Shown piece by piece: positions 7,617-62,264 of a stretch of DNA of 64,000 nt. Where the stretch lies: NCBI GenBank assembly GCA_963971305.1, contig OZ020303.1, positions 43,698,106-43,762,105 of the forward strand. Direction: 5' to 3'. The notes below the pieces were generated by a model. That model was not told the DNA's origin, searched no databases, and saw only the letters and a program-made list of their open reading frames with translations. Origin of the DNA: Arcuatula senhousia (Eukaryota; Mollusca; Bivalvia; Mytilida; Mytilidae). The stretch's first letter is position 1, and each line of letters begins with the position of its first letter. The position numbers and the translations under genes were made by a program.

Positions 7617-10600
7617 TTATTTCATCTTTATACTTTTTGCCCACATCCTTTCAATTGCTTCTTTCTCGTCTTTTCTTTTGTTGTAGATTTCTTTATATTG
7701 TTTTTTCTTTGCTTGGTCGTCATGAAAATTTCCTTTGTTATCTCTGTTTCCCCTATGGGATAGTGGATCATCGCCATGGTAACTCGAACTACCCGGATTT
7801 TTAAGAGCTTCCGGTATACTAAGATGCCCATCAACAGAATAGCAGTCGTCGTCATCGTAAAGTCGTTCTTCATTCTTTTTAAAATATGTCTTCAAATAGG
7901 ACGAATTGTTTTCATCGGTGACTATTTTAGATTTCTTAATGTTCTTTTTAATGAAATCTTTTGGTTGAGATTCTTGCATTTTTAATTCTTTAAGCTTTTC
8001 TTTGATCAATTCGTCTTGAGGCTTTTCCTTAGGTGCAGTCTTTTTCGTATCAGGAAGACTCTTAACACTATTGGTTTTTATACTTTGTTTTGTGTCTTTT
8101 GTGCTCTTTTTGGTCTTTGGCTTTATCAAACGGTTGTGCCTGTCATATTCAGGTTTAAGCATGTCTGGGTCGATCAACAAAGATTCTAAGGTTACAAGCT
8201 CAGTCTTTTCTCTTGTTGCTACTTTGTCTGGTTTTGGTGCTTCCGTTTGTTTTCGTATTTCTGCCTTTGCTTGGCCAGACTGAGGCACCATTTTGTTTTC
8301 TCCAAGAGTTCCAGCACTTGCTTCTATGCTTTTGATCATTTGATTCACCTATCCAATAGAAAGAAAAGCAATGAAGTCTATTAAGATTAATAATTATAAG
8401 TTATATTAACTATTCATTTGTAACTTGTTCCACCAACATTTCGATTAAATGAAATTACAAGTTTATCAAGTGCATTCTTTTTATATATTCTTACTTATTA
8501 TGTTGTTCATAACTTAGTAAACACTAGTTCAGAAAAGAATACTAAATAGCTAATTTATTTGTATAAGTGTAATTTAATTTCCTTAATTAACACGACAGTT
8601 TTTTTTAAATAATCACTGAAGAAGCTATTTTCTATGAATCAATTGATTAAAATGTTTCGCTTCCATGATTTACTTCCCTTGAGTATTAATTAAGATCACT
8701 TAATTACCCAAATAAAGATTGAAGCTGCTTCGTGGCTTCCTGCATGAACCTGCTCTACTGTAAATGGTTGCACAATTTTCTTTGCTTCAAATGCCAATGC
8801 GAGATTTGCATCCTTGGTGTCAAATTTGGACATTTGTGTCAAAAATGATTTATCTCCCTTTTGTCCTAGTATTTTCTGACACTGCTTCCAGGTCTGTAAT
8901 AAAAAGGGGTCATCTCAAGGCATATCAGAATGTAATGAATACAGTAATTAAAACGAAGTACTGGTATTGTATATAACATGTGTTATACTGACACATAATG
9001 TCAAGAATTATCTATTTTTAAAAAAATTGAGTAGAAAATCACAGAAATTGACAGGTTGGTTTTTTTTATTTGGTACATTAACTACCACCCATGATCAAGG
9101 TTTTCTTTTTAAATGCCAATTTATCGAATCATACATCACAAACGTTAGATTTTAAATCAAATTATGATCTATCAAAATTCAAAAAAATACTTCAAGTACT
9201 GATCAACTCTTTAATTACCACTTAAATGTTACCCAAACGTTATTGTGTAAAAAGTATTTTCTTAGCTTAGGATTACAAAATCCAACTAAGGTTGTTTTGA
9301 AACTTTCTTTTATATTTCCAACTACCTGATCAAGTCTTATCATATTCCTTACCTTAACATCCGATTCCTCATATCCCAGTAGCATAAGAGCTGCTGTGAC
9401 GGTCTGATGTACACCGACTGGGGGAATATTATACTGTCTAAGCTCCCCGATCATTCTGTTGTCTGTATTCCTCACCAGTGCCTGCATGGTTCTCAAAGCT
9501 GCAAGTCGGTCTTTTAATCTTGTAGCAAGTGTAAGTTGTTGATCAAAAGACCCGTCGTCGTTAACGGCTGAAGCATTGGCGATGGCTCGCTCTAAATAAG
9601 TGAGCTCCCTAGCCTGATATGCCCGTAGAATATCTAAAACAAAAGAGAAGGAACGGTCGGTACTTCGAATAAAATCCTAAGTTGATAGTACTTGTACATT
9701 TACTAGAAGTATTAATTCAAGCTCCATTTTAAAATGGCTGAAAGTGGTCCTTTAGTAGACTAAGCCTTTTTGTCGAATAAATAGATTGATAACAAAACAA
9801 AGAAAGTGATTTTTTTCGTAGATAAGTCAATATAAACATATAATTACATACCATCTTATCGATTATAACACAAACAGACCAATCCCATCATAAAAAGTAG
9901 GTTGTATAAGAATAAACACTACAAGTAGTTTTAAAGTACCATTAGAAATTAAAGATTGATTCGCTTCTTCAACTTCAGGTAGAAATTTTAAAATCCTATT
10001 TGTATTTGTAATATGTGTAACTAATTTTCAAACAGCTCTGTTTTCCTACGGGATTTAATTCATAAATAATCATTAAAATTTCTTTAAATGTCATGTATCG
10101 TTTTTCTTTGTTTGTTTGATATAATTGCTCTGTTCTTTCAAATAGAAATATTTTCAGATCCTTAACTTGCTGTTATCTATTAATGTACTCGTCTCAGATA
10201 AAACTATGAAATTTCATTCAGAAGCCATCTTCGCTAGCCAAGGGTTACGATCTTATAGTGAAGATGAGAGATAGCGGATCGTAACCCTTGGTTAGCAAAG
10301 ACGTTCAGAAGCAAGAATTTCATAAAAGAGCTTGTGTGACTAAAAGTGTTTTCCCTAAGAAACTTCTTAAAAAAAAACGAGAAATTCAGCAGGGCCGCCA
10401 TGCAAACCTTAATCAGTGTACCTGCATATTTTGCACAATCAGCTAACTAAACGCAGTAAAGATATTTTAAGCTTTCTTTATTTTTCTTTAAGAAATTTCT
10501 TTTCTTAAGGAAGTGACCTTTATTTGCAATGTACATGTATTCTATATTTAAGCAAAATATTATGTTCTTATTTAAACTTTACCATATTTCGCCTCTAAAA

Positions 10601-20128: not shown

Positions 20129-23100
20129 TCACCACTCGTCTTCCGAATCCCATTCCTCGCTCTCAAATATAATGGTACCATTCTTCTCTATTGAATATTC
20201 TGGAAGCATTGCCTTTCTAGGTGCTACTCGCCTCGACAGTACGGATTTTCCGGATTTACATCTTTCTACATCACCTTGTTTGTACTCCATCACACGGATA
20301 ACTCCCTTGACCTAGAACGAAAGTAAGTTATCATTATCTTGAGCTCGGAAATGTTCAGTGCGAGTTTTACTTTGTAAATTTGCTATATGTAACCATATAT
20401 TCCTTTAGTATAAACTCAAACTAAGGGATGGACCATTTAACTTGAAAGGGGGGCTTGGTTTTTTGTTTTCGTCAGAACTATTTATTTTTCAAAGGCGCCG
20501 CGACAGAATATTTTTTTTTCATTATTATCATTATCCTATATGGCAGAAATCCTTCTTCAGAATATTTTTTTCTTACCCCCTGCTTGCTGCCAGATTATTA
20601 TTTTCATCAAAAATAATTTTCAGAATATTTTTTTGGAAAAAAAACAAGTTAAATGGTCGGTCCCTAAGTGTTCCGATTCTAAAATCAAGATACATAATTC
20701 TATAATCGGTACACTGTAAAAATGGTGTTTAGAATCTAAACACTTTTAAAACATTTATAGCCCTAAACACTTTCCAAATTAAACATGTAAAAGCTAAACA
20801 TGTTTAGGTTTTAAACATGTTTCACTTCTTAAAAATATCAATCTTAGAAATTTTCCTAAATTATTTTCATTAATCTAAACACAATCCTAAACATGTTTAG
20901 ATGTTAAACGTGTTTAAAATTCAACACAAATTTTGTGCTAAAGATTGTCTTCAGAATCTATACACAATTTTCACAGTGCAGATGAAATAATTTAATAAGA
21001 AAATTATCCGCGATTGTCTATCGGTGTCTCTTGATGTCAAATGCGACCATGGTTTTAATAAACGGTGGTTCTTCTTCAGAAGGAGCAAAAAATGTCTATG
21101 TTGAGTTGAGAGAGCAATGCCACATGACCTTTGCGTAAAATGAGATATCATAGGGCTCATTGATTTCAACGAGATTACCACAATAACACACTGCATTGGC
21201 ACTGTGGAATAAATTAAAATGTCCTCCTTCCCAACCTAGCTTATAGTAAAGTAATAGTAAAATCTAACCTAAAAATATAAAACTGAATTTATTGCTGATA
21301 AATTACTATTTAGTATAGTTGAATACCTACCCAGAGATATACAATAGAAGCTCCCTTGCTGACATCCCTAATTTGCCATGCTTTGTATGGGTCTAAAATT
21401 CTTTTAACGGCTACCAAAACCTTTTCATCAACACCTCGTATGTCAAATTGGCTTATTTTTCTTGTTAGACTTTCCTTCCCACTTTTGTTTAATAAACTCT
21501 GACAGCCTCTCCAGTTCTGTGAAAGTAAACATAATTTTTTATTTATCTTTAATCTATAAAAATGGCAATTACTCTTTGCCTTTTTAAAAGAAAATCTAAC
21601 TAGAATTATAGGGGTTGTAACAATTCAAAAGAAATATGTTTGCAAACAAATATTACGTTTGAGTAAAATTGGGTCTTTGAAAATATACTGTAACCATTTT
21701 ATAAGCTAAAATATATACCTTTCAAATCAATAATCCAATGTTTGTTTAAACTAATTGAATAAATACATTCCTTGCTAACAAGTTTGGTTTGTTAAACTTC
21801 ATTTAAGTTGTTTTATAATGTTTTGTTTTTAAACAGTTTTATGTCATACCTTTACATCGTCCAAACCATATCCCAACAATAGAAAAGCTGCTGCCAATGT
21901 CTGGTGGACACCATTGGGTGGCACTTGGTACTTCTTGAGCTCAGACAAAGATTTCTGGTCAATTCCAGATACATCTTTGCATATGTTCTCTATTTTGTAA
22001 ATTCTGCCTAGAAGTCTTGTCGCTATAACTATTTTCGATTTGAGAGTTCTTGAAAAGCCTGCCTGTTTGGCTCTTTCAACTGCATCTTCAAGCATCCCTT
22101 CTGTCTTTGACTGACAAGCCCTGTCTAGATCTATGCAATATAAAACAGCAGAATTCGAGACCACTGCACTAAATTATTGCTGTTGTTAATCTTAAAAGTC
22201 ACGTGAAATGGTGTTTTGAGAAAGAAATACTCAGACCTTGCTTTTAGATGTTACATGTACTAGTATATTAATCTCTATCAAGAAATCTTATGGGAGACAC
22301 CATTTCCTTAAAGACAAATGCCAGTAAGAAATTCGATCCTATTATTTTTTCTTGTTTTTTTTTTTTTTTTGGTTTTTTTTGTCTTTACCTATCTTAAAAG
22401 TACCATTGACAACGCAACAGGTATGTCTGAAAAGTTCACGTTCGTTTTATTGATTGCATTTTGGTTGCATTGTGTGTTTCTAAAGGTTGTTGTTGTCTCA
22501 ATGTCTCCTGATTTTTGTCTTTATTACATTTAGAATGTCTCTTTTGAATTATTTGTTTCTTTCCAAGTTTGGTAATTTTGTTTATTACCTTTATTCATAA
22601 CCACTGTGTCTTAAAATAAAGTTATTTTACAGACAACGGATTTTAACTGAATATGGAAATATCAGTTTGATCGTATTTCCAAGCAATTCAAAAATGCTGA
22701 ATATGAAGAATATAAAGCATGGAACTAAACCATAAGGGAACTACAATATATACCAATACGTACATTTTTGTGCTTGTAGGAACATGACCATTTTATTTGC
22801 CTCCAGTGCTAAAGAGTCAGTATCAGACGAGGAAGAAGTTCCTCTCTTAGAAGAATTGTCGTACACCTTCAAATAACTGAGCAGTTTGTTCAAGTCTCTC
22901 TGACTTATTGCTTTCTTGATATTTTGCTGAATCGTATTTTTCCTGTTTGAATCTTTAATAATAAAATTAAATAAAACATTTTGTTTAAATAATGTTTGAA
23001 TGTAATGGACAAATCGTGATTTTTGGTTGCACACCACACAAATGGATCAAAGCATTAAAACATGTAGATAAAAAAGTGTCTTTCCTTACACGGAGCGTCA

Positions 23101-35913: not shown

Positions 35914-36062
35914 ATTATTTTCAGTGTCACTATCACTCGTAACGGAACTATCGGAATACGTAGATGAACTACATGCCTGCTCCTCTTTGTCTAAATTTAT
36001 ATTATTTACATGTCTTTTTACAGGTTTTAGCGACGGCGAACGACTTCGTTTACGAATGGCAC

Positions 36063-37367
36063 CTATCGACTCCCTCCTGGAGGACCGTGCCTGGCGTCCC
36101 CCAGGTGACTGGCATTTCCCTGAAGTTTAGGGCAACGAGAAGCGATATGTCCGTTCTCGGAACAAATCTGACACACAACGGTTTCGGCTGTTGACAACGG
36201 TTGTTGAAGTTGAACGCATTGAAGTGCGGTATGACCGGACTGTTCACAAAGTTGACATTTACTCTCGGGAGAAATCGTTCCTGTGCCGTTCCACTTACAA
36301 TATTTGCGAACGTGACCCTGACCTTTACACGAATAACAAGTAACCGGCTGTCTCGGGCCATCTGAAGTTCTCGGTTTACTTGTACGAGCACGAACGGACT
36401 TATCGTCGGACAAGTTTCTAACAAGCGTACTTAACTCGCTCATTTGAGTTTTCAAGTGCGAAATATCGTCGTTTTCGGGTCTTGATGGTACGTTCCTCGC
36501 GATGGCTAATTGCGGTTCGTGTATCCTATATTTGTAGGCCTCTCCGGCTTTCGCGAGTGAAAGAGCCTCTGACGTGTCGTGCGGTTTGCTTGTCCGGACG
36601 TAAAACGCGAGCCTTTCTGGTAGACCGTTGATAAATTTCAGCATAATTTCATGTTCCGGTTTCGACAAAAGTTGGCCTTTTTCAATCAGCTGACAATAAT
36701 AGTCCTCAATATCTTGAGATGGACCTAATGCCATATTATGAAACGACTCGCTTTCGACGACGATCGACGGATGTTGCCAATCGATTTTAACGTATTTTGC
36801 TATAAACTGCTCTCTAATTTCCTGCCACGAAAGCCTTGGGCTAAGCCCATTAAACCATGTTAGAGCCGGTCCGACCAAATGAAGGTGAAACGCAGCGATT
36901 TTGCGACTCTCGTCGTCATCAAGTTCATTTAAAAGCGCAAACGACTCAAACTCTCTAAGAAAACGTGTTCCGTTTTCACGCGGGTAACCAGAAAATTTGT
37001 GAGTTCCAAGTTTGTCCATTGTTAGATGTTTTCGTGACTTGTGTTTCGGTAATTTAAATGAATTAGCTAAAACGGGGTCTTGATTACTAGTATTAGGGTC
37101 ACCAAACGTTAAACTGCTGTCTTCACGTTCGGAAGTATTATCGAACAGGTCAAAGTTTGTGGCGGGTGTTACTGGTGTAACAGGCACACGGACGAGGTAT
37201 TTCTGGGCAAAACTGTCTTCATGAAACGAGTGGTCGGCGGTTCCTAAGCTTTCGGGTGGCGGAGAGTTAGAAATTGAAAATTTATTGTTTTCTAGAAATG
37301 AGTCATCTAAAATACCAGAAGAAATTGAAGAACTGGACTCATCGTCAGATATATCCGAAGAATTCAT
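36063..37367 (-). CDS. gag: Retrotransposon Gag protein (434 aa)
   Basis: A Ser/Asp-rich N-terminus precedes a retrotransposon Gag capsid-like domain (about 115-270, with FSGYPRENGTRFLREFESFA and WFNGLSPRLSWQEIREQF). Three CCHC zinc knuckles follow near the C-terminus: CYSCKGQGHVRKYC, CQLCEQSGHTALQC and CQICSENGHIASRC, all of the form C-x2-C-x4-H-x4-C. Three knuckles is more than most elements of this class carry. The stop is followed without a gap by the Pol frame in -1. Intact. Confidence 0.92.
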   Translation of the reverse strand: MNSSDISDDESSSSISSGILDDSFLENNKFSISNSPPPESLGTADHSFHEDSFAQKYLVRVPVTPVTPATNFDLFDNTSEREDSSLTFGDPNTSNQDPVLANSFKLPKHKSRKHLTMDKLGTHKFSGYPRENGTRFLREFESFALLNELDDDESRKIAAFHLHLVGPALTWFNGLSPRLSWQEIREQFIAKYVKIDWQHPSIVVESESFHNMALGPSQDIEDYYCQLIEKGQLLSKPEHEIMLKFINGLPERLAFYVRTSKPHDTSEALSLAKAGEAYKYRIHEPQLAIARNVPSRPENDDISHLKTQMSELSTLVRNLSDDKSVRARTSKPRTSDGPRQPVTCYSCKGQGHVRKYCKWNGTGTISPESKCQLCEQSGHTALQCVQLQQPLSTAETVVCQICSENGHIASRCPKLQGNASHLGDARHGPPGGSR

Positions 37368-37475
37368 TACACATGTTTGAAAAGCAATCTATTCAACATA
37401 AGATATACAAAAAGGGGGTACAATCTACACCCGTACACAACCAATAAAAAGTACTGTACAATAACTCTGTTCGTG

Positions 37476-38735: not shown

Positions 38736-41700
38736 TTAGATTTTAACAACAGTCCTCTCTGTCTTTTCAGTATACATAGCAGGCCTTGGACGAGAAGATT
38801 TCAATCTTTCAGGTTGGCTGCCTTTTCCTCTTTTTTGAATTTCATTCAATATTCCAGTGACCTAAAAGATATGCAAAAGTAAAGATAAAAAAAAAATAGT
38901 GAAAAATGAAAACAGCATGTGAATAATACGCAGTTTCAATAATTTTTTTAAATTGTCTCCAACAAATGAAGTCTATTTTAATTTAATATCTTTTGCTTTT
39001 GAACATGGTGTCCAAAACGATATTTGAAGCATTACGTTTACGAATTGGTGTCCAAAATGATATTTGAAGCAAACTACGTTCACGAATTGTAAGGAAAGAC
39101 AAAACTTATAATAAAACTGAGGAAATCAAACTAAAAGTAACGTAGTAGAAAACCCTAAAGCTATAAATCGTCCATTTAAATTTCAAAATTTTCTAAACCC
39201 TAAGACCTTACCTACCCCAGTCTTAATTAGGTTGTTTTTCATGTTCGGTATTTTTGGTTTTATTGTTCAATGCTCTTGATAATCTGGGTATGATATTAGG
39301 CTTTTTCAAAATTTTGGAAAGAATTGTCTCTGATGAGTCTTGAATAGACGAAATGCGCGTCATGCGCAGCAAAATTTATTGTCTGAATCTTTGTTGTAAC
39401 TTTTATTTGTTAAGCTTCTGACTTGTTTAAGGTTTGATTAGGTTTTGTGAGAGCATTATTTCAATTGCCATGTGTATAAAAGTCATATGCTTATTTAAGA
39501 AAACAATAAAAAACCACATGCCAATAAGAAGTGAAGTAGCCATTTTGATGAAATCTCGAATTATTCAACAACGAAAATACCAAATAGAATTTAAAAATCA
39601 AGCATAAAAAATCGAACAAATCAATTGTTACAGAGAGAGCAATCAAAGCCCTTTTTTAGCTCACCTGGACCAAAGGTCCAGGTGAGCTATTGCCATCACT
39701 TGGCGTCCGTCGTCGTCCGTCGTCCGTCGTCGTTAACATTTTTCAAACGTTAACTCCTCTAACACCATAAGTCCAATGGCTTTTAAATTTGGCACAGTTG
39801 TTAATTAGCATAGGTAGTATAAAACTAGCGTGGGGATTTTTGATTCGTTGAAAAACATGGCCGCCATGGCTAAAAATAGAACATAGGGGTACATTGCAGT
39901 TTTTTGCAAATAACTCAAAAACGGTAACAGATATCAAAATTCTGGCACAGGGTAAAAGTGATCAGCACCTCAAGATCTACCTGCCCAGAAATTTTCAAGA
40001 AGATCCAACAACCGATGTAGGAGTTATTGCCCTTTTTCTGGATTTTTTCAAAATTTTGCACTTATTTAGCACTATATCTTGAAAACTATACAAGATATTT
40101 TAAAAATTCAAATTGCATATGATTAAGCACATCAAGATCTACATTTCATGTAATTAGGTCAAAGCTGTAGAACCATTTCTTTTAGGAGTTATGGCCCTTA
40201 AAGCGTCAAATTTTACCATTTTTCATTACTTTTACCCTGAATTTCAAAGATTAACTTGTCTGACACCATACATCCAACTTCAACCAAACTTGGCACAGTT
40301 GTTTAATAGCATTAATGCTAAAGTTCTATCGTTCGGATTTTTGATTTGTCAAAAAATATGGCCTCCAAGGCTTAAAATAGAACATAGGGGTCAAATTACA
40401 GTTTTTTGCAAATAGCTCAAAAACGGTAACAGATATCAAAATTCTGATGGAAGACAAAAGTGATAAGCATCTCAAGATCTACCTGCTCTGAAATTTTCAA
40501 GAAGATCCAACAAACGACATAGGAGTTATTCCCCTTTTTCTGGATTTTTTTTCAAAATTTTTCACTTATTTAGCCCTATATCTTGAAAACTATACAAGAT
40601 ATTTCAAAAATTCAAACTGCATATGATTAAGCACATCAAGATCTACAATTCATGTAATTAGGTCAAAGCTGTAGAACCATTTCTTTTAGGAGTTATGGCC
40701 CTTAAAGCGTCAATATTTACCATTGTTCATTACTTTTCCCCTGACTTGTCTGAAACAGTAAGACCAACTGCATCTTAACATGGCACACTGTTTGATAGCT
40801 TATATGCTACAACTCTATCGTTCAGATTTTTGATTCGTAAAAAAACATGGCCACCATGGCTAAAAATAGAACATAGGGGCAAATTTCATTTTTTTGCTAA
40901 TAACTCAAAACTGGTTTCAGATATCAAAATTGTGCAAGAATCAAAAGTGATCAGCATAATAAGATTTACCTGTCCTGAAATTTTGGAAAAGATCTGACTG
41001 CTGATGTGGGAGTTATTGTTCTTTTTCCTAATTTTTGCCAAATTTGCACTTATTAAGCCCAATATCTTGAAAACTAACCAAGATATTTCATAAATTTAAA
41101 TCGCATATGGTTAAGCACAATAATATCTACAAATATATGTATCTGTGTAGTTCAGGTGAGCGATTCAGGCTCTTGGGAGCCTCTTGTTAGTATTTGAGGT
41201 TTTTGCCCCAAGCCTCTTTAAAGGTAACCATCTAAAGACAACTATTTAAACAAAAGTCGCAAAGTTTTTATCATGTTTGATTGAAATATGAAAAAAAGAA
41301 AATAAAACAAGGTTTTTAAATAGTCACATCCAGTTAAATATTTTGACTGCAAATACCTTACCCAGTTATAAAAGGCAGCAGCACCCTTGCTAACGTCACG
41401 AATCTGAACAAAGCTGTATGGTTCCAATATTGCTGTTATCTTATTGATCATATCCGGTGTTACGGTGGTAATGTCAAACAAGGTCACACGTCTCATCACA
41501 TGGTCTTTACCAGTCTTAAACAGAATAGCCTGGCAGTCTTTCCAACACTGCAATGATATTTTTACATTAAAGCTAGAAAATGCAGGGGTTCAAATTAACA
41601 TTTGAGAACAAAAGGTCCCGGACTTTTGGGAGTCCAGAATAAAAGTCCATAAAAAATTAAAAGGTCCTCAATAAGAGTTATTGTAAATACTGGCAGGTCC

Positions 41701-44700
41701 AGGACCTTTGTCAATGAAAATTTGATGGTCCTGCATAGAGAATCAAAGGTCCAAGACCTCTGATCAGTGCTAATTTGAATCCCTGAAATGTTTTTATTTA
41801 ATCCACATGGTAAAGTTTGAATATTCAATTTAGAATTACTGAAAATTGGTCTGCAATTTTGCTTCTTTACATGAATGTTATTCAATTGTGGTTACTTTTG
41901 AATCAACTTATGAGAATACGGTTCTTACCTGCTTCAAGGCATATACTTAACATGTCAACGATCATTACAACTTTGCAACAAGATTAAAATAAAAAAGAAC
42001 TCCAAATACGTGACTTGTCAAACTATAGTTTTTCACTAAAAACCAAAATATAACGTTTCAAATATTTTTGAAAATAAATGTTCTTTTGTATTGCCGATAT
42101 TTGGTCATTTGCAGTGTATATCTAAGTGTTTTATAATTTCTGTGATTGTTTTTTAATTGTCTTTTCTTGGCTTATTTCTTTCAATTTGATATCGATTAAA
42201 CACATCTTGGTGTATACCTTCAACGTTTTTGGGTTATCTCCAAGCAAAATACAAGTAGCTTTTAAAACATGATGAACAATTTCTTGTGGTGTCTGATATT
42301 TCTTCATCTCAGTAAGGATATTCTGATTCATGACCAATAAGGGCCTCGTCAGCCGCTCGATGTCTCTCACTCGTTTTAAGATTTTCTCTGATAGCTTGAT
42401 CTGCATATCTAGTTGGTGATCATAATTGGCATCGTTAGCCTCCTTTAAGTATTTTTCTATAAGTTTGGGATCCCGTGCATAACATGCTCTCGCCATTTCT
42501 ATAAAATTATCCAAAAAGTGATGGTTTAAAATCAAGTATTATTTGGTACTACAATATGATTGATTGGCATTTAGACGGATGATAAACGATAAATAATTTG
42601 CTATGTCAATTGTGTGTTTTTGTTCTTGTTTTGTTTTTGTTCTTGTTTTGTTTTGTATTTTGCTTTGAAAAATCGTGAATATCAAAAGGACAAAGAATAA
42701 AGCATCGAACACATAGAAAGGACAGGTATAAATAACACCAACAACCAAAATAAGAAGAGAGGAGATATTAAAAGAATGGGTAGCAACAGGTATGAAATAC
42801 AAAAGGACATAAAGGGGGACTACAGATGACAAAAAGTACTAAGAAAGATAAGGAATTCATGAGATTTGGTGAAAGATACAGCAAGGGGATGAATAAAGGA
42901 CAAATAAAGAGCTGGTTAAAGACGAAGGGGATATGTATGCAAGTTTTGAAAATTGCAATTTAGGCATTCATTCTTGGTTAGCATTAAACAGGGATAGTAG
43001 TCTGAGGAAAATTGGACATCTAACGAGACATTAAATTATACCCCGCCACAATATATTGAAAAATGTTTTAGAGAGAGATGAGTTATCTTCCTTAGACCAG
43101 AAAATTTCAGCAATGTCAAATCTTTAATTTTTTTAAAGTTGTAAAACTATATTTCATATTTTTTGATCATCATGAAAATTTACTTTGACCTTTATTTTAT
43201 TGTTGTCAACAGATGTGCAAAATATCATTAAAACACCTTGACGCGTTATCATCTGGAAACCTTTGGGAACGGACAGATGGACGGACGGACAGGACGGACA
43301 CAAAACGAAACTGAGGGTATAACATAATACCTCGCCACTTCGTGTGAAAGGTATAAAAATGATTACATTGTAAATCTAAACATTTCTTACTTTCTTTTGC
43401 AATCAATCCTCTGACGACTTTCTTGGTATAAACATATAATTTGTCTTCCGTATCTAAATCTAGTTCTCTGAACTTTTTAAGTTGCACTCTCAGTTTGTCT
43501 ATATCTTTTGTTTTCAGGGACTTTGCCATATTCTTTTTAATATACTTTTCTTGTGCTGAATGTAGACAAAAAGATATGATCAACATTATTACATACACAT
43601 GAGTGAGTATAAAAGTAAGATGTAACCAATTCGCACTCCTTCATGTTCAAAATGTTTATATGATAGAACAAGGATATGTTATTCTTCTTTACCTGTTATT
43701 TTAAAAACACATAGATTTGTATATGGACTATGTTGTTGCGTCTAAAAAAAGCCATTTACAGTTAATTCTTGTTGCAGTCGTCATGCTTTAAGTAGAGTCG
43801 AGAGGTCCACAAGACTAAAAGCTGTTTTTTCCATTCTACCATGTGTCTTAAAAATCATTTTTATATGCCAGATACTAGTACCCAGATCATGCATCAATGT
43901 ACCAATACCATGAACATGTACCAATGTACAAATACCATGAACATGTACCAATGTACAAATACCATGAACATGTACCAATGTACAAATACCATGAACATGT
44001 ACCAATGTACAAATACCATGAACATGTACCAATGTACCAACCATGTACCAATCGTTGAAACTGATACATTGATATAAATCGTTACAAAATGGTTAAATTA
44101 GATTATTAGTAGACAAAAGTAAACTTTTAAAAGATATCGATTTTTCACCAACTTGAAACATTTCTTTACAACATAATCGATTTAGGTCTGAAACTTTAAA
44201 GTTAAGTTTTTGCGTAAATAGAATTATTGTACTGCCCCGCGTTTTTTTTTTACTATATACATCTTACTTTTTCTATATTTCTCCCTAGCTTCAGCTTCAA
44301 TAGGATCTAATTCTTCCACTTCTATCTTCTCCGATAAAGCTAATGACTTCGTATCCTCAGTCAGAGTCAACGATTTTAGATCTTCTTTATCATCATTTAT
44401 ATTGGACTTTTCGACGATTATTTCTTCTTCGTCTTCTTCGTTTATTTCTGGGTTATCACTGTCCGAATCCTCGCTGCAGATTTCTTCAAACTGACTCGGC
44501 TCAAAGACACTGTCCAGCCTGTCTGGAATGGGTTCTTCGATCGGCATTGTATCTTCTCTTGGCTTAAGAGTCCTTACAAGCTCGTGAAAATCATCTTCAT
44601 ATATGTCATCTTGTCTTTTTCGATGAATATAAAATCTTCCCACCGTTGCGGTGATATTTTCATATTTTTCGTAAATGAACACCTCTAGAATATATTCTCC

Positions 44701-47700
44701 GTAGTCATTTAGTGTTAAGAATATGTTATTATCGATCACTTCTGTTTGCATTTCATTTTCGGTCTCGTATATTTTTTCGTCAGTTTTACGAATGGTTGTA
44801 AATATCTTTTCACTATTTAATGTAGGGGGTATGGAAATTTCGATTTTGGTTTCTGACGTGATGATTGTATCGGTAATAAGGTTCTCCACGATATTGTCGT
44901 CCTTAAACCTAACCTTTCTTGTAACATTGCCATCTGAATGAATGAAGAAACTATGTATTTGATGTAATTTTGATTGGTCTTTGTCTTGAAATGCGAAAAC
45001 ATTCATAGTGTATTCGCCTGGTATGGGCATATCTGCGTGAAACGCCCACTTATCGTCGTTCACTTCGGTCTCGACCGAAGCGCGGCTGTTGCCCTCTCGT
45101 TTACAGCAGGAGAGTTCAGTCACTAAAGAAACGCCTTTGTCTGCACGGAAATGAAATGTTGCCGTACCGTCTGTAGCTTTGATATAATCACCTTCCAAAC
45201 TTAGACATTTTATCCCCAAAGATTTTGCATCGAGTTTAGCACCAAGTTGTCCGTCTGGAATATTCGGAAAGGGGAGATTACTCGGACGATCGTCGCCTTT
45301 AAATTTTACAATGAAATTAAGTAAATCGGACGGAAGATTATTGACAACATTGTCTGACGTCTGCTCAACATAGAATTTGATGGCGTACTCTCCTTCTCGC
45401 GGCAATTTGATGTTTGCAATATACCTGTTATCTTCCCTTCGTGTTAAAATGTGTCTGCTTAGAACACTTGGGTCGATTAGCAAACTTTTAAGCATGTGAG
45501 AGACCCCTAAATGCTTGTCGATATTGATAACGAATTCTAAAATGCCGTTTCCGGTTTTGACAAATGGTTTCGTTGGCGATATTGCGTAGATTTGTAACTT
45601 GTTTGCGTGTGGATTATTTCCAAATCCGATTTCTGGGCAGTCTGGGAAGGGGAGACAATTTTCTTTTGGATCAACACAGTCGATCAAGTACGATGCAAGC
45701 AGGGAGAAGTCGGTAGATTTTGTGATATCACATGCGTAAATATCAAAATAATACTTTCCATAAAACGGAAGTCGAATTTTAAACGTAACTTTGTCAGACG
45801 TATGGATCAAACTAACAAAACGTTCCAGCAAAATGTCGACGGGTTTGTTAGTTTCTATGACGGTTCTCTTCTGACTCAGCATGAAACGAAATATGAAATC
45901 TGCACTTTTATTGGGATGAATACCGAACGAAATATTTATAGTTTCTTGTTCAGCTTTTATTTTGCACGCATTAGATACTTTGTCGATAATGTTCATTTCA
46001 TATAAATGGAAATACTCGCGTAAAAATGGCATCGTTGTAAAAATCGGCATAGTTATAGGGATTGTGAGCAATTGCCAACGATCGTCGTCTGGTAAGTGAG
46101 TAAACATGAGTTTATCTGGATCAGTGAAGAAGTAAAATTCGTTGTATTTGACAACTTCGTCTTTATCTCCTTTCTGAGTGATTTTCCCTTTAGTGTCAAT
46201 GAACAATGTATTTTCCTCGCTGTTCCCTGACACACACGTGGATGCCCAGAACACGTCGACAAATCTCCATTGACCTTTCACGAACACTGCATTCCACTGA
46301 CTGTTGAGTTCATCATAATCCATCTCGCTGCCAGGTTCGTAGGAGCTGGACTTTGTAACACCGTTTATTAAAACACATGGAAGATCTGCAAGCCTACAAT
46401 GAAAGCGTCATAGATTTACTTGTGCCGTACTAGGTCAAGCTGAAAACGCCAGAGTGCTAATAAATACTTATGAAAATTTGGGAATTTAAGAAATGGGTGA
46501 AACTTTTGTGGTTTTAGATATAAGAATAGATGTTGGATCATGCTTTGATGCAACAAAATTTGAATATAACACAAATAACAGGAACATAGCACCAGTCAAT
46601 TGCTAGTTAATTACTTTACATTAAATGATTGATTTTTTTAGAGACAAAATCCCTCTTTTGAAATATAAACATACATGCAGAGTGCATACAACATTTGTGC
46701 ATGAGATTCTTGGCAATACTGGATCTTTAACATGTGCTCTAGCGGTGAGTCAGTCGGCGGAATCATCTCTGCGTCTATGCTATATACGTCGTATGATGTC
46801 ATCCATCTAAAAATAGCTCGAATCTTCAAGATATCACTAGTCTGCTTTCCATCAGGTGTCAGCACTAAGTATTCTACAACATCCCACATGGACTTGGTAA
46901 GGAGGTCCAAAGGAGCCTAGAAATTTGTAAACGAAACGTTAAAGCAGGAGGTATTAGTCAGACGATGGGTTTGGGTCTATAAATCTTCATATTGAAAACC
47001 CCAAATAGGATCAGATTATGACCATCATATTCAGTGTGTGTATTGGTGTTTAAAGCCTTTTTCAATGCACCTGGGTCGTATAGGGCGGGTCAGTCAGTGA
47101 TAATGGCAGAGTAAACCGGAGCAACCGGAGGAAACTACTGACCTAAGTAGCTGACAAACCTTCAGGTGGGAAAGTCTCGTTCATGTAAATTCCATTCGGG
47201 AATCCATCCAACAACCTGTAGTGGAAATTGACTAGTGACCAATAGCATGGTTTTTAAACCAGCGCCTTAGACCACTCGGCCACCCCGGCCCTGCCATCAT
47301 AATCAGCATATAAATGCAAAGTATATAAAATGATAAGATTGTGTCAATCCCAATCTTAATGATGAAAAAAATGAATAGTGTCATTTATGAGGACTATACA
47401 AATACGTTTTTATTGTAATAAGACAAAATTGTACGAAGAGCTTTTTCAATATTTCATATTTAACTCTCGCATATTGAAACCCAAGATAATAGCATTGTGA
47501 ATAGTAAAGGGTTCATTATACCTGTAATGCTATGTTGTCAATGTCTGTAAAATCAACGTGCTTCAGAAGTTCTTTCTTCGTTGTCTTTGGAGGTGTTGGT
47601 CTCAGCTGATCAAATGTCGTAATTGTTCCACGCCGCTTTGGCAAGTACCCGTGCGCATGCGAGCCATTCTCAGACGACATCAAACTAATGCGATCTGTTC

Positions 47701-53166: not shown

Positions 53167-56100
53167 TTAACGTTTCTTCTTTTTCCTTCCTTTTGTCTGT
53201 TTCGTTCCTCCAGTGACGGGGTCTTCTTCCTGTTTTCCTCCAGTTGATTCCACTTCTTCAATCATTCCTTTGGACTTAAATAGAAAAATACGTAAGTACT
53301 TCTTTGTTTTAGAAAATACAAAAAAAACCAAACAAATCCACGGTATGGTTTAGAGTTACGGGTTATGGTTAGAACTTTCCCTAATCCAAACCCTAAATAC
53401 AACCTTAATCCTAACTACACATACAATCTAGTTTAGAGAGAAGGTTTGTTTACATGCTTTGAGATTGAAGTTTTGTACCAGTACCAATCATCTGGAAGGA
53501 TCATTACTTGTTGATTCAGTGATAATGTCACCCAAAAAGACATCCAGATATACTTCCAAACGAAATATGAATCAATGCTTTTGTCTCCATTAACTGTGAT
53601 TGGCTGTGATACAAGTAAGACAAAATATAATTACTGATAATTCAACAATTCTATCGAAATTTCACTATCAACCCTAATATTTATCTTCTTTATTTGCCCG
53701 TTTTTGTTTTTGCATTTTTTATTCTGACCACCAGTCCGTATTTTTCGGTTACCCTAACAAAGCTAGAGACTTACCCAAACATAGAAGGTTGCGGCTCCAG
53801 CACTAACATCTCGGATATGTTCCAGTGTGTAATCTGCAAGTATTTTCTTTGACTGTAAAGCTGATTGCAGGAAACAATCTTTAGGATCAAACTTCTGAAT
53901 TTTCCTCATAACAGATTCTTTGCCAGTCTTTCCGAGAATGATCTGACAATTCCTCCACTCCTGTAATAATGATTAAGCATAAGGGTAATTTTTGTTATCA
54001 GTAACATGAAAAAGTCCCGAAACCGATTCCGTTTGTTTTTTTGTTTTTTTTTTTGTCAGAGAAATTGTAATTCTTTATCATTACTCTATATTTCTACCTT
54101 TATGTCAAGTAACATGGTAAACAAGATTTATGTTAGTTATAATTTGGTTTCCAAGTTCGGTATTTTTTGTTCCATCGTTGCATGCTCTTCATGATCATAT
54201 TGTGTTTGTCTTTTTTTAATATTTTCGGTAGAGCGCCTCTGATGAGTTTAGGATAGACGAAATGCGCGTCAAGCGTAGCAAAATTTATTGTCTGGAACTT
54301 TGTTGTTTTTTTTTTGCATATAGTCATCAAATAACAACATTTTTTTCATAAATGTACATGTAAATATGTCCAGTATAAGCCATTTTACCTAATTTAAATA
54401 AATTCAATACACTTCTGCTTTTACAAAGCTTGAAATAATACTTTTCGATTTTGGTTTATAAACAAGTAAAAAGGTCTCATTTTCCAAAAAATGCATCCTA
54501 TAAACATAGCAAATTTGCATACCTTTACTTCTTTCATAGAATAACCAAGCAGTAAAAATGTGCCCATAAGGGACTGATGTACTCCGTCTGGGGGCTTAGA
54601 ATATGTCTTGATTTCATGGATCGTTTTCTGGTCCATGTTAAGTACAGAGTGACGGAGTTTCTCAATTCTTGCCAACTGATCTCTGAGCCGCTGTGCGACG
54701 ACAATTTGAAGGTCCAACTGGTTTTCGAAGTTAGCTGCTTTAGCTCTAGCCAATGCCTTATCCAATGCATCTAGTTCTCTTCGCTGTGAAGCATTCTGTA
54801 GTTCTGAAAACAACGAAATTTAAGTAATTTTTAAAAATCTTTTACTACGACACAGACCAAATATTGGTACATGTACCTACTTTACATTGTTGAATATTTG
54901 TGGTACAGTGGATTTTTGGTGGATGTGTTGTTTTATACAGTCTTTATTAAAGTTATTGTATCAAATGAAATAAGGTAAAAAACAATATTAGATATGTGAA
55001 TAAACATAGTTTCATAAATCAAGATCCTACTAAATTCTTTTTGATATTTTCAATCAATATTGAAGTAGTTGGTACGTTACAAGACCAACATCTTTTACCT
55101 CTGATACATGAAAAAAGTCCCGTTTGTTTCATTTAAAGATTTCTCTGCGACAATTATTTCAGTTTTAATAAATTGTACAAAATTACAAAAGTCATAATTA
55201 TAGTATAACCTTCCTTAGCTTGCATTAGCTCCAACCACCTTCTAGCCTTTTTGATTGAATCATCATCCTTTCCACCGGCATTATCATACATGGCCAAAGC
55301 CTTCTCAAGTGAGTACATGTCCTTCTGTTGTATAGCCCTATCCATCAGCTTCTTCGCATTTCGTCTCTGTATTTCTTCATCAGATGCGTGTGGGTCGATA
55401 GGTTCGTCGATTACTTCCTCCTTTGGTTTCTGTAGCAATTGCTCCATCAACATCTTGGCGTCATCTTTGTACAATTCTGATGCTGGTTTTCTGTTTATCT
55501 GGTACCTTGCCAAATGAGTAAGAGATCCCTTATCGTCCTTGTTGTAGATGTCCATCATGTATTCTCCAAAATCTTCTAATTTTGTGAGGAACAATTTCAA
55601 GCCGTCTTGTTCCATGAGCTTGATAGCTTCATTATCTGGTGGGTCATCGGCGTGTCTTCTGTGGAATGATGCAACCACGTTGTCGTAGCCAGTAGGTGCT
55701 GGAATCAAGATTTCTGGTTCTGATGTTTCGACGGTTTCTATAATGACAGCTGGTTCTTCCTTTTCATCTTTCATGGAATCTATCTTTTCAGTATCAAGCT
55801 CATGTCCATCTGATTCCATTAGATATGAATGGACATTGTAAACTCTTGATGGGTTGTTCTTTTCTCTTGCAAAAACATTAAGAGAATATTCGCCCTCGAT
55901 CGGCATATCCATATCAAAGGTCCATGTACCGTTTTTGTTTGTTGATTTTACCACCATGTGTTTTCTAGCGTTCGGGTCATTGCTGTGTATCTCGCATACA
56001 AGTTCTACGTCATTTCTGGCCTTGAACGTAACTGATGCTTTTCCATCTTTGGTTACCACAGATCCTCCAGGATTGCTGATTGGTTTTACTCCAAGTTTTT

Positions 56101-59100
56101 CTGCAATGGATTTCTTTCCTATCTTACCATCTGTGACGTTCGGGAATGGGTCGTTTGTTCCTTTTTCTACAAACTGTACAAGATAATTTAGAACATTGCT
56201 GGCATCTCCATCTTCTCCCTCGTCATTTGCGTACAGCTTCAGGGCGTATTCGCCATCTTGTGGCAGTCGTAAATGAACTATAAATTCCCCATTTTCTTCT
56301 CTTATTACAGCATATTTACTTAGAGTAGCTTCGTCAACGATAGCATTCTTGAGGAGCTGATGGAGACGGACGTCTTTATGTGCACCAAGTTTGATATCGA
56401 CTTTGCCATCCTTGGATACGATAACGGCGCCATCATGGGATTTTGGTTTGATTCCTGCGTTCTTAGCTTCGACTCCAGGTCCCCAACCAATTTCAGGACA
56501 GTCGGGAAGAGGCATGCAGTTCTTCTGGGCTTCATTGCAACTGATCAGATAAGTACAACACAAATCAAAAACATCAGATTCGCGTTCGTCCAAACCAAAA
56601 ATGTCCATTTTAAATTTTCCAACGACTGGAAATCGCAAGGCGAATCTTAACAAATCCGAGTTGTGTTCAAACATCACGAATCTTTCAAGTGACAGATTTC
56701 CACCATCTAAACCGCTTTCTGCACGATTTTGATACAACATATATTTGAATCTAAAATATTCACTTTTCTCCTTAGGTAGCCCAAATTCAAGTCCTATTTC
56801 TCCTTTTGATGCTGTCAAAAGACATTGTTCTTTGCTCTTAGCAGTATAATGCATGTCCAGATAATAAAACCTTTCACGAACATACGTATGATTTTCAAAC
56901 TCTGCGACTGTTCTAGTTTTTTCCAAAAGTTGCCAAGCCTTCTCGTCTGGGAAATGTGTCCATATAAATTTATCTGCGTCCGGAAGGAAATAAAACTCAT
57001 TGACTCTATGCTGAGTTTCTCCTTCTGATGTTTCTTCGTCCTCTGTGGCAACGTTGCCATCCGTGTCAACTAGTGTCCATTCCCCAGACTTCTTTCCTAC
57101 TACACAGGCTGAGGCCCAGAAGGCATCCACAAATCGCCACTCTCCGTCGATGTACACGGCATTCCACTGAGCCCCCATCATTTTGCGATCACATTTGCTA
57201 CCAACTTCATAAGCTGCGCTTTTGTTCATTCCGCTTATTATAACACATGGTACACCAGCCATCCTGGAAAACAATATCATAGAAATAAAGGTTGATTCAA
57301 TGCTAAAATAAAAATAAATGTTTCAAAGTAAATAAGAGCTTAATTTTGTTAAACATGAAGTAGGGTTAGTGGCATTTGTTTAAAGCTGGTACTGTATGCA
57401 TGCAACTAATATAAAAAAAAACAAGAGGCAGTGATTAGTAGTCTGTTTCCCACCTATTGCCGCCTGGCTTTCGCCTTTTTATAACCAGAATTTTCAATTC
57501 GTGAATTTCGACCTTAAACATTAATTTAATGTGCCATGAAAAACTCGTCTTGTTGTTTTTTTTTTTCAAATATCCGAGATGAATTCAGTTCATGTTATGG
57601 AGATATTGTTACGGTCTTCTCCTTCTATTTTTCTTAATTGCATTCTGATCAATTGGGTACATATTGAAAGTTTTAGAATATTTTGAATGATCATTGTGTT
57701 GTGGTTAGTGCTAAAGAAAAGTTACCCTTTGTAAATGTTTTGAAGTAGCATGACGGAAAAACTTTGAGAACTTTGGTTTTATACATTTTCTGTCTTAGAC
57801 AAGATTTAACCAAGAAAATAATTCAAACTCACTGACAAAGTCCAGAGATAAGATGGGCATGGTTACCCATATTCTTCTGTATTTTGATAAAATATTCAAG
57901 GGGTGAATGCGTAGGCGGATCGCTCTCTGTTTTCAGGCTGTAAACATCTACTGAAGTGACCCATCTAAAGATGCCCCTCACTTTACACATGTCATCCCAT
58001 GACGGGTCTTTGGTAAGATAGGCAATAAGTTCTTTGAAGGTTCCCACTAAAAGGTTAGGCGGCGACTGAAAATAAAAACCATATAGGTTTGATAGTTTGC
58101 GTTTAGGTTCCAGTGAAAATATATAAGTTTTGTCATCTTATTTTGTTTACTTATACTATGATATATTTCGTTTAAGTTGCAGCCCTTTAAACAAATATTT
58201 ATTTTATGATTTTAATGAAAAGAACAGATTTAGAGAGGTTACTTGATCGTCGTTACATGTATATAATCTTTATATGCTGACTGATTTTTTTTTTCAGGTT
58301 AAGAATGACGTCGATTTTACCGTCGTGGCATGCATTTGATTCGTTGCATGTCAAGCATTGGGAGACAGATTATTTTTACAAAGTGAAACGATAATTCTAT
58401 TAAACTACATGTATAGACAAAAACTGAATTAACATAAAAATATAAGATAAAGACTAAACGTACATTTAAGGCATAATCATCAACATGTTTGTATTTTTCT
58501 ATTTGGAACACTTCGTCTTTCCGTCTTTTTGGAGGAACTGGCGGTGGAACATTTGGTTTGGCTGGCTTCTTCTGTGCTGGTTCAGTTTTATTGTTTGTTG
58601 AACCTGATGTTTTAGGTCTAGAATCCTATAAAGGGAAGACAAATTTTTAATAAAAGTTATTAAAAGATACTGTTGTAAACTTGTTATATTTAGATAGACC
58701 CTTGACCGAAAAATGAAAAAAAACAGGGTCTATTCAAAATTGAAAAAGCTATTATATGAATAACTAATGTGTCGTGCATATTACATAATCTATATGATTT
58801 CATTGTTATTTGATAAACGTATTGCTTTATTAGTTTTACATTACAAAACTTGCCTTATTTGAATAAATTATTTATTAATAGACATGATCTATTTTCTGTT
58901 ATCAATTATCTGAACAAATAGAGTCGTCATTGCAACTCAATAATACGTGCAAGTTGAGGTAGAAATTCGTGCAAATACTTGATATACAAAACACTTTGTC
59001 ATGCATTCAGGTGATACATGGAGATATGTCACCGTCAAGATGAAAGTGCTTATTGTATTTGATGCATCATTACAATTTATAAAGTACTAAAAAATAAGTA

Positions 59101-62100
59101 TGTTTACAGTATTGACAAAGTCAGGAAAGGCATAGGCGCCAGAAGATAGAAGATTTACCAAAATATTGAACGGATTTAGTTGAAACTTTAACATGCAAAT
59201 CCTCAAATGGTATTAATCACTCTGTAATATCTCAGATATGTACCCCCTACAGTTCGTTAGCAAAGGCGTTGTTGTTGACGGACGGATAGACAGTAATAAC
59301 TCAAAATCAAAAATTCTTAGCACAAAATTTAAAATAGCGTAAACTGTAAGACTAATCTCATTTTAAAACCCCTACGAATTTGATTCTTATGGTAGTAACA
59401 AAATTAATTAGAAGATCGATTTGATATACCCCTCCCATTTTTTTACATAAAATTCGATGTTTTGTCTTGATAAAATGCCCAAATTCAATTTCTATGTATT
59501 TTAACCGTAAATCTACTTATATTTATAAACATATTTCAGAAATTCGAAATCGTGAAAAACAAATCTGTCAACAACATGATATGGGTGGGATCCGCCAGTC
59601 AAAATGTTCACATCCTTATTGTGGCTTTAAAAAACTTCAAATATGAATTTTATTCATAATTCATAACTGATTTACAATCTTTTAGATTGACAAATTAAAG
59701 ATTTTATTAAATTTTAATGCAACATAAAACTTATGTACATAATTTTATGTGGTGCTTAACCTAAATTATTATTTATTGACCTTATGTTTTCACATATTTC
59801 TCAGGGGTATCTTGAGAATTTCTTTTTTTTTATCCATGTTATTTAAATTGCATATTATATATGTATTTTTTGTCATTGATAACTTTTATGTCATGCTTCT
59901 CCATTTATAGTTGTACAAGCATGCAAATCGATGTCAATAAATGGAGCTACATATGATGAAAAAACGTGTTATAAAGTAAAACCTTTGAAAGCAAAATAAT
60001 TATATTAAAAAGCACATCCACATGCATACATTTAATCAAAGTTAAAATGGTAACGTCATGCAACACCTTTAAACTTAAAGGACAACAAGACATTGATGGA
60101 AAAATCTAAGTAAAATGTACTGTATGTATGCACAAACATGCAGTTTTCCAGGTAATACTAGATGGAGTGAGGTTAGACTTATATCGCCTGCTCAAGTCAA
60201 AGCTTATGTTTGTATTGGTTTTAATGCTAGTTGCTCTATGCCCATTTGATAATTTAAGGCTTGACTCTGAATGATGCGTCTTGTTTTTGTTGATCTACAA
60301 CCGATTGCAGACGAACAGTTAAGGCTGTTGGCTGTTTTTTTCTGTTTTAGATTTTTATAAATTGACGACCGACTATATAGGTTCTCACCGTTGTGACATT
60401 TATTCCATATCTTATTATATTCACTTGGTCAATAAAAAAAACATGTGAGCGAAGGGGAAAAATTGCTAAATAGATGCAAGAGTACTATAGGATAGAGCTC
60501 TTGGAAAATATGAAACTTCTGCTGGCGCTGGTGCTTAAAGCAATAAAAATGACAACAAAGTTCCAGACGATAAATTTTGCTACGCCTGACGCGCGTTTCG
60601 TCTATTCAAGACTCGTCAGAGGCGCTCTACCAAAAATATTGAAAATGCCAAACACTGTATGAATATGAAGAGCATAGAACAGTAAAACCAAAAATACCAA
60701 ACTGGGGAACCAAATTATTACTAAGATGATCAACCTATGTCTGGGGTAGGAAGAACCTTAGGGTTAGACAATTTTGAAAATTAAACGGGTAATTCAAAGC
60801 TTTGATTTGTTCTCCAACACAAAAGTGTTGGTGCCGGAGCGGGCTAACCTCGGGGAATTAAAACTCCACCAGCAGTGCTAACCTTCACGTGTGTTCGAAA
60901 TAAAAATGACAACAAAGTTCCAGACGATAAATTTTGCTACGCCTGACGCGCGTTTCGTCTATTTAAGACTCACCAGAGGCGCTCTACCAAAAATATTGAA
61001 AATGCCAAACACTATATATGATTATGAAGAGCATAGAACAATAAAACCAAAATTACCAAAATGGGGAACCAAATTATTACGATGATCAACCTATGTCTGG
61101 GGTACACAATTTTGAAATTTAAACGGATAATTTAAAGCTTTGATGTGTTCTCCAACACAAAAGTGTTGGTGCCGGAGCGGGCTAACCTCGGGGAATTAAA
61201 ACTCCACCAGCAGTGCTAAAAATTTAATTGTTATGTGAAACACGGAAAGTATATGCAGACGACATAAATGAAAACTGGTTCTTTACAACAAACAAAGCTG
61301 AGTTATCGGTGCAGTGACCCCTATACGCATGTCTGTCAGTTGTCTGTTCGACAGGTACGCAGACGACATAAAATGAAAACTGGTTCTTTACAACAAACAT
61401 AGCTGAATACCTGTTTCAATGTAGTGACCCCTATACACATGTCTGTTTGACGGGAACGCAGACGACATAAAATGAAAACTGGTTCTTTACAACAAACAAA
61501 GCTGAATACCTGTTTCAACCTCTTCTTCACATAAGTATACTTCAGCAAAACACTTCATATTGTAATGTATTTGTTCTACAATTACTAGGTGATGTTTATA
61601 GCACTAAAACTTTCAGTTTTAATACATTTTCAAACCCCCACAAAACTTGCAGCTCGTTAAAAACTTTATTTAATTTAACAGTTGAAAAGAAAAGTTAATA
61701 TATGTAACTTTAAAAAGGTGACGAAGCGATTTGTCCCAAAATATTAAAATTCTGTCAAAACTATATAATAAGTGTTAACAGTTTGACATACTTTAAAAAG
61801 TCGTTCAGTTATGTACAAAACAGTTTGATCTATTCATTTTTTGTAATAAAGTTCGACATTTTTCTTACATGTAAACCCCTGGTATTGAGACACATATAAC
61901 GGTTTGGAAAACAAATGGCCGGGTTAGACAGTTTTTCAGCTGATCGATATGAAAAACTGACATTCATCAAATTTAAATTGAGGATAAAAAAAATCTCATG
62001 CAAACCACCATGGTCTTTTGTTTCAAAGAAGATAAATTTTACACCGACCAATGAAAATATCGGATATAGTCGACTGAAAAACAACTCTAGCCCTGTCTTC

Positions 62101-62264
62101 TGAATTCCAATCGGTTCCACGTGTCAAAATACCCGGCGCTTGATTGGTTGAAACAGATATAAGGAAAGCAGACTCACAGGCGTTTGAATTGGTGCGCCAT
62201 TTACTTTATGAGGTGAACTTTGAGGTCTTTGTTTAACCTCCTGTGAACTGGACCCAGAACCCAT
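53167..62264 (-). CDS. KY-like pseudo-transglutaminase with Ig-like repeats and dynein-stalk-like C-terminus (gene 6, 1036 aa)
   Basis: Seven exons: complement(join(53167..53274, 53775..53960, 54523..54803, 55210..57263, 57833..58065, 58464..58625, 62178..62264)); phases agree and the sum is 1037 codons. The start MGSGSSSQ fits N-myristoylation. The linker has a PPPVPPKRRK stretch that resembles an SH3 ligand. The transglutaminase-like core (about 84-215) has Met149, Ala192 and Asp207 where KY peptidases have Cys, His and Asp. Four KY Ig-like repeats (about 220-760) each carry a G-[KE]-[FY]-x-[ML]-[DKN] strand. The helical segment that is a separate exon in its paralogues is fused to the long exon here. 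Residues about 900-1002 match the dynein stalk tip (KPPDGVHQ, LLLGYS, EWRNCQ, FDPKD, IRDVSAGA, VW-V). The 35-residue tail ends in basic GRKKKKR. Activity as a peptidase or transglutaminase is unlikely. Confidence 0.9.
54132..54310 (+). repeat. TGATGAGT..GACGAAATGCGCGTC repeat, copy 3 (longest on this strand)
   Basis: It runs from TTATAATTTGGTTTCCAAG through a CATGCTCTTCATGATCATA stretch to GGTAGAGCGCCTCTGATGAG, GACGAAATGCGCGTC and GCAAAATTTATTGTCTGGAA. It matches the reverse of 60544-60735. It lies in gene 6 between the two dynein-like exons. Confidence 0.75.
60544..61218 (-). repeat. Tandem pair of TGATGAGT-core repeat units (357-bp period)
   Basis: Two direct units, 60544-60900 and 60901-61218, each with (plus strand) AAAAATGACAACAAAGTTCC, CTACGCCTGACGCGCGTTTC, GTCAGAGGCGCTCTACC (or CACCAGAGG...) and an end part with CAACACAAAAGTGTTGG and CTCCACCAGCAGTGCTA. 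On the minus strand each unit contains CTGATGA- or CTGGTGA-type and GACGAAACGCGCGTC blocks. Located in the first intron of gene 6. Confidence 0.75.
61254..61519. repeat. Tandem repeat of about 100 bp, nearly three copies
   Basis: GCAGACGACATAAA(A)TGAAAA recurs at about 61256, 61361 and 61459, each followed by CTGGTTCTTTACAACAAACA. The first two are followed by GTGACCCCTATACGCATGTCTG-like sequence. In the first intron of gene 6; apparent open frames are chance. Confidence 0.75.

Follow-up and report, generated by a model that had tools for sequence, protein, structure and literature searches.

Does the microtubule-binding tip of the dynein stalk, usually regarded as meaningful only on the motor, also occur on proteins that have no motor? 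The question is raised by a gene on the minus strand of a 64,000-nucleotide stretch (the window) of the bivalve Arcuatula senhousia (assembly GCA_963971305.1, contig OZ020303.1, positions 43,698,106 to 43,762,105), which a first-pass annotation, made from the letters alone, had read as the fusion of a KY-type transglutaminase-like core to a dynein-stalk-tip-like domain. Taken together, the Pfam scan, a family profile, structure models and alignment support the fusion. The coding sequence runs from an ATG at 62264 to a stop at 53167, exactly the limits that had been proposed (53167..62264); it comprises seven coding exons (Table 1), with all six introns GT..AG and the frame open throughout, and encodes 1,036 amino acids. 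The model was built by hand from genomic DNA and is splice-consistent. An orthologue, an uncharacterized protein of Mytilus trossulus (P0001), is 85.2% identical across 1,030 aligned residues.

A KY-type protein with a broken catalytic triad

A transglutaminase-like core followed by KY Ig-like domains places the protein in the KY / hillarin family: in the Pfam scan PF23265 (KY Ig-like) scores 211.5 bits (cut-off 27) and PF01841 31.7 bits (cut-off 23), and one relative, P0127, is named hillarin-like. It differs from KY and hillarin in that the Cys and His places of the core are taken by other residues, and in carrying a helical linker and a stalk tip at its C-terminus; vertebrate KY is not known to have a C-terminal stalk-tip part. 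The triad places, assigned by eye from the 9crn alignment, are occupied by Met149 for Cys, Ala192 for His and a retained Asp207. The aligned relatives agree: none of the 42 aligned rows has Cys at the first place (three are gapped there), 41 have Ala at the second and 41 retain Asp at the third, with one gap at each of these two. As aligned, the Cys-His-Asp triad is broken, with two of its three catalytic residues lost.

The C-terminus is a relative of the dynein stalk tip

Exons 5 and 6 encode residues ~845-1001, and the landmarks that had suggested a stalk tip are indeed there: KTIHEIKTYSKPPDGV, LLLG, a Trp that is residue 2 of the next exon, KFD, and VSAGAATFYVW. With the dynein heavy chain stalk (PF12777, MT) the module has in common EI[KR]..YS.PP..V, W.....LLG, FD and VS.GA....W, as well as the stalk-tip helices, a CC1-like lead-in (CC1 and CC2 being the two stalk strands), a family profile match and, for one relative, a match of fold. 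Single-sequence phmmer against PDB sequences returned 25 rows headed by five dynein chains (E 1.3e-4 to 7.8e-3), with the first non-dynein at E 0.02; the match to DNAH6 (E 3.9e-4) extends over query residues 3-160, the whole domain. The reversed sequence gave one unrelated match at E 1.3 and no dynein. A profile of 22 domain copies gave 67 matches at E 1 or better, the best at E 2.8e-9; 59 of the best 60 are dynein heavy chains or stalk constructs, called by name or length and in one case carrying a misleading name, and Son of sevenless, at E 0.19, is the sole exception. Chain C of Chlamydomonas radial spoke 1 (PDB 7jtk) is not among these best 60, and may be an independent non-dynein use of the stalk-tip fold. 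When 142 family copies were set against four dynein sequences, profile against profile, the probability was 98.7 over 104 columns.

PF12777 itself is matched by P0038, from Gigantopelta aegis (33.5 bits; cut-off 24), and by g1, a paralogue in the window (Table 1). At E 0.05 it is reached by seven of 34 KY members and by none of 38 members of a second type, in which the module follows an EF-hand-like N-terminus; 14 of 22 bare domain copies match it at a lenient E of 10, the best at 3.2e-9. A profile of 37 whole proteins, mostly of the EF-hand type, is weaker (DNAH10 at E 9.4e-4, cytoplasmic dyneins at 0.0048-0.053), and it also picks up calbindin at 0.012 and, between 0.22 and 0.98, further EF-hand chains as well as myosin VI, SEC3 and fusion chains. 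Sequence profiles (the family profile, g1 and P0038) and the model of a relative show the C-terminus to be homologous to the microtubule-binding stalk tip of dynein.

That relative is P0078, an EF-hand-type protein whose model has the six-helix fold and resembles solved stalk tips: Foldseek placed dyneins at ranks 1-13, with weak E values (best 1.5e-3). The predicted fold is thus as the first-pass annotation had anticipated, although in an EF-hand-type relative and not in a KY protein. Foldseek and VIA-align run on the full KY model returned, in the best 50 rows of each, mostly Ig-type domains, antibodies and central-pair chains, and are therefore no test of the C-terminus. In the AlphaFold2 (AF2) model of P0001 the lead-in helices and a long last helix are visible, the latter ending at residue 1010, and residues 1016-1034 have a predicted local distance difference test (pLDDT) score below 50. 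This model has no antiparallel two-stranded stalk of CC1 with CC2, so the absence of a return helix (CC2) noted from the letters is borne out, as is that of an AAA part: no AAA+ motor ring, linker or tail was found in the Pfam scan of the 1,036-residue protein. Besides having neither ring nor CC2, the KY protein differs from dynein in two short insertions that flank H3, and in three of six tubulin-contact places. In the P0078 model, helix 6 runs on as a 63-residue helix (residues 282-344) that resembles a return stalk strand; the KY model has no such helix.

Tubulin contacts are kept in part

The yeast dynein tip makes six salt bridges to tubulin, through K3117, E3122, R3124, R3152, R3159 and R3201, as described in PMC7042235. 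Charge is kept at three of these places. Two lie in H1 and correspond to E909 and K911 of the window protein: E3122 is Glu in all 141 copies with a letter there, and the R3124 place carries Arg or Lys in every one of 141. The third, R3152, in H3 directly after the Trp, has a basic residue (Arg or Lys) in 115 of 142. The K3117 place is mostly Gln; Gly occupies the R3159 place in 135 of 142, and in 140 a neighbouring residue is Lys or Arg; and the R3201 place, in H6, is Asp in 131 of 141, with Arg one place earlier in 135. This H6 place aligns, in our own alignment, with R3382 of mouse dynein, which is given as a tubulin contact in PMC4987762 and PMC4230729. Two aligned axonemal dyneins are non-Arg at both H3 places as well, so the H3 losses alone do not exclude tubulin binding. 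A GKTGK loop is absent from the four aligned dyneins and highly conserved in this family, with four of its five letters ranking in the top 22 of 166 columns by conservation. This mixture of kept and altered contacts suggests that microtubule binding is possible and that its geometry may differ from that of dynein; the chance that the KY protein docks on microtubules is about even.

The module recurs across animals

The first database search gave 49 proteins, 39 with a KY Ig-like domain and ten without KY; the source is named for 32 of the 39, 31 being molluscs and one the brachiopod Lingula, and seven are unnamed. Further, overlapping searches (89 and 80 rows) gave a second KY group, one annelid KY protein, and EF-hand-type proteins in nemerteans, annelids, a brachiopod, hemichordates, echinoderms, amphioxus, tunicates and one coral. 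The fusion recurs beyond the window, which goes further than the first-pass annotation had, in lophotrochozoans (molluscs, a brachiopod, an annelid), and the distribution of KY with stalk tip is wide and unexpected. Vertebrates, arthropods and nematodes do not appear among the named matches of these word-based searches with length limits. The domain profile, itself seeded from many of them, matches all 141 proteins returned (isoforms included), and in the 92 that are listed (P0050-P0141) the domain ends 2-100 residues short of the C-terminus.

The EF-hand-like coiled-coil proteins, auto-named trichohyalin-like or caldesmon-like, end in the same module, which in seven rows shares 39-46% identity with the copy of the 53167..62264 gene; instead of KY they have an EF-hand-like N-terminus and a long coil. 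EF-hand_6 is reached at E 0.05 by 20 of the 38 EF-hand-type proteins, and is below cut-off in those listed from another Pfam scan. In a tree of 49 rows they group with the KY copies, on the same side of a branch with 100/99 support that divides 45 family rows from four dyneins; the separating branches are long, and four dynein sequences are too thin a sample for naming the parent dynein.

In amphioxus the module is carried by CLCA/VWA, CD20-like four-span, mucin-like and CARD-like proteins; the CD20 and CARD matches fall short of the Pfam cut-offs. It is C-terminal in P0123, P0129-P0134, P0117, P0119-P0122, P0139, P0140 and P0128, among which single-protein cases may be gene-model errors. In nine of nine membrane-type proteins scanned it lies after the last hydrophobic stretch and should therefore be cytosolic; the crude hydropathy scan also flags stretches in P0001 and P0126, which are taken to be soluble, and so is no proof of membrane spans. 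These lancelet fusions rest on gene models; odd lancelet proteins are attributed to prediction errors in PMC4967905, and the fusion with a reverse transcriptase in P0135 probably has the same cause.

Four KY genes in tandem

Four KY-type genes stand in tandem on the minus strand of the window (7617-62264), every one of them having two stalk-tip exons, 281 and 186 nt long and alike in phase; the four stalk domains are 25-44% identical. The other three are described by their core-exon open reading frames (ORFs) and stalk exons, and g1 by a tail exon as well, without the exons between core and stalk, and in the tree their branches are much longer than that of the 53167..62264 copy.

Table 1. Coding exons of the KY / stalk-tip gene and its paralogues in the window
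Feature	Position	Strand	Content and basis
Coding exon 1	62178..62264	-	Start codon 62264; N-terminus, modelled with low confidence in the orthologue; splice-consistent gene model
Coding exon 2	58464..58625	-	Proline-rich stretch; gene model
Coding exon 3	57833..58065	-	Transglutaminase-like core, first part; Met149 at the expected catalytic Cys place
Coding exon 4	55210..57263	-	Remainder of the core, with Ala192 in place of His and Asp207 retained; KY Ig-like domains; beginning of the helical linker; PF23265, PF01841, orthologue model
Coding exon 5	54523..54803	-	Helical lead-in and a CC1-like helix, then H1 and H2 of the stalk tip (EIKTYSKPPDGV..LLLG)
Coding exon 6	53775..53960	-	Stalk-tip helices H3 to H6 (WRNC..KFD..VSAGAATFYVW), up to residue 1001
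Coding exon 7	53167..53274	-	Last part of H6, then a basic tail (net charge +6 over the final 26 residues); stop 53167
Paralogue g3	41362..42498	-	Stalk exons 42498-42218 and 41547-41362; KY core exon ORF 44224-46407; PF12777 12.5 bits, below cut-off
Paralogue g2	21331..22130	-	Stalk exons 22130-21850 and 21516-21331; KY core exon ORF 23430-25658; PF12777 12.3 bits, below cut-off
Paralogue g1	7617..9633	-	Stalk exons 9633-9353 and 8893-8708, tail exon 8348-7617; KY core exon ORF 11116-13038; PF12777 24.3 bits (cut-off 24), E 1.9e-5

Between the second and third KY genes lies a Ty3/gypsy-like retroelement (30880-37388, minus strand), recognised by eye from its translations, with two long, open ORFs: a zinc-knuckle gag (36063-37388), and protease, reverse transcriptase and integrase (30880-36126). 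Intron 1 of the 53167..62264 gene contains, at 60542-61219, two blocks of ~120 nt and one of 70 nt, each in two copies that are 91-97% identical; a 79-nt pair at 61341-61518 adjoins them.

Docking head or other explanations

We give an even chance to the protein being a non-motor KY scaffold with a static stalk-tip docking head on microtubules or the axoneme. The pseudoenzyme core and the Ig-like domains would serve as a binding platform, and the stalk tip, preceded by helices and having neither a second strand nor an AAA ring, would work as the docking head, with H1 and H3 contacting the tubulin surface and tying the scaffold to it. Since there is no return helix and no ring, the register shift by which dynein switches affinity should be unavailable, and attachment would be constitutive or regulated by other means. 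KY deficiency is reported to disturb filamin C in muscle (PMC6078408), which makes a microtubule-to-filamin link one concrete guess. The gene, itself one of four tandem copies, belongs to an animal family that joins the module to various N-terminal parts.

Two results weigh against such a docking head. The Pfam scan of the 1,036-residue protein found no match to PF12777, so the profile check that the first-pass annotation had suggested came out divided, with the family profile, g1 and P0038 matching the dynein stalk and the window protein on its own failing to do so; and charge is not kept at three of the six contact places, being lost at K3117 and R3159 and reversed at R3201. The altered charges would suit a descendant of the dynein tip that no longer binds microtubules, a general C-terminal docking or signalling module whose GKTGK and RDVSAGAATF surface serves another partner, and so would the conservation of the GKTGK loop as a family-specific feature and the position of the module on the amphioxus membrane proteins and on one CARD-like protein (17.9 bits, cut-off 23.9), which recalls receptor or adaptor tails. 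We rate this loss of binding somewhat short of an even chance: the H1 Glu, an alpha-tubulin contact in yeast dynein, does not vary, the Arg or Lys near it is retained wherever a copy has a letter, and the H3 places that differ from yeast do so in two axonemal dyneins too. Convergence of short helical bundles, or an artefact of composition, appears very improbable. Most scanned members, like the window protein, have no PF12777 match, unrelated chains enter the single-sequence search from E 0.02 on, and helical models easily reach middling structural scores; but the reversed-sequence control brought up no dynein and the 22-copy profile is specific to dyneins. It is scarcely credible that the fusion is an error of gene model or assembly joining two neighbouring genes. 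The model is hand-built, without RNA of this genome, yet 39 proteins have both the KY Ig-like and the C-terminal domain, seven being encoded by contigs 3.3-5.3 kb long, and the three other KY genes of the window have the same two stalk exons; a split gene was rejected on the strength of these paralogues and of database orthologues with both parts.

Among known systems, FAP246, a Chlamydomonas central-pair protein for which LRR, TGC and EF-hand motifs are described (PMC7999657; see also PMC8175508), matches up to residue 526, and the stalk tip is not covered. Kyphoscoliosis peptidase occurs as a gene or protein name in the mollusc expression studies consulted. Among the papers listed in a literature survey, with subscription papers mostly outside it, none links KY or other non-dynein proteins to the dynein stalk domain or describes such a fusion.

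Since the same detached tip ends several unrelated animal proteins, it may be a reusable docking module. A bolder version, tentative and less likely than not, is of a mobile, motor-free dynein stalk head of single origin, at least as old as the cnidarian-bilaterian split, which would form the C-terminal end of coiled-coil proteins that sense calcium, of pseudo-transglutaminase scaffolds and of transmembrane receptors, attach them to microtubules, and have been lost in vertebrates. A tip without a ring (and, in KY proteins, without the second strand) is a natural test of what the tip does alone, and the module is a compact candidate for a microtubule docking tag. It also provides a hypothesis of function for more than 100 database proteins (141 returned, isoforms included), many of them named uncharacterized, trichohyalin-like or caldesmon-like.
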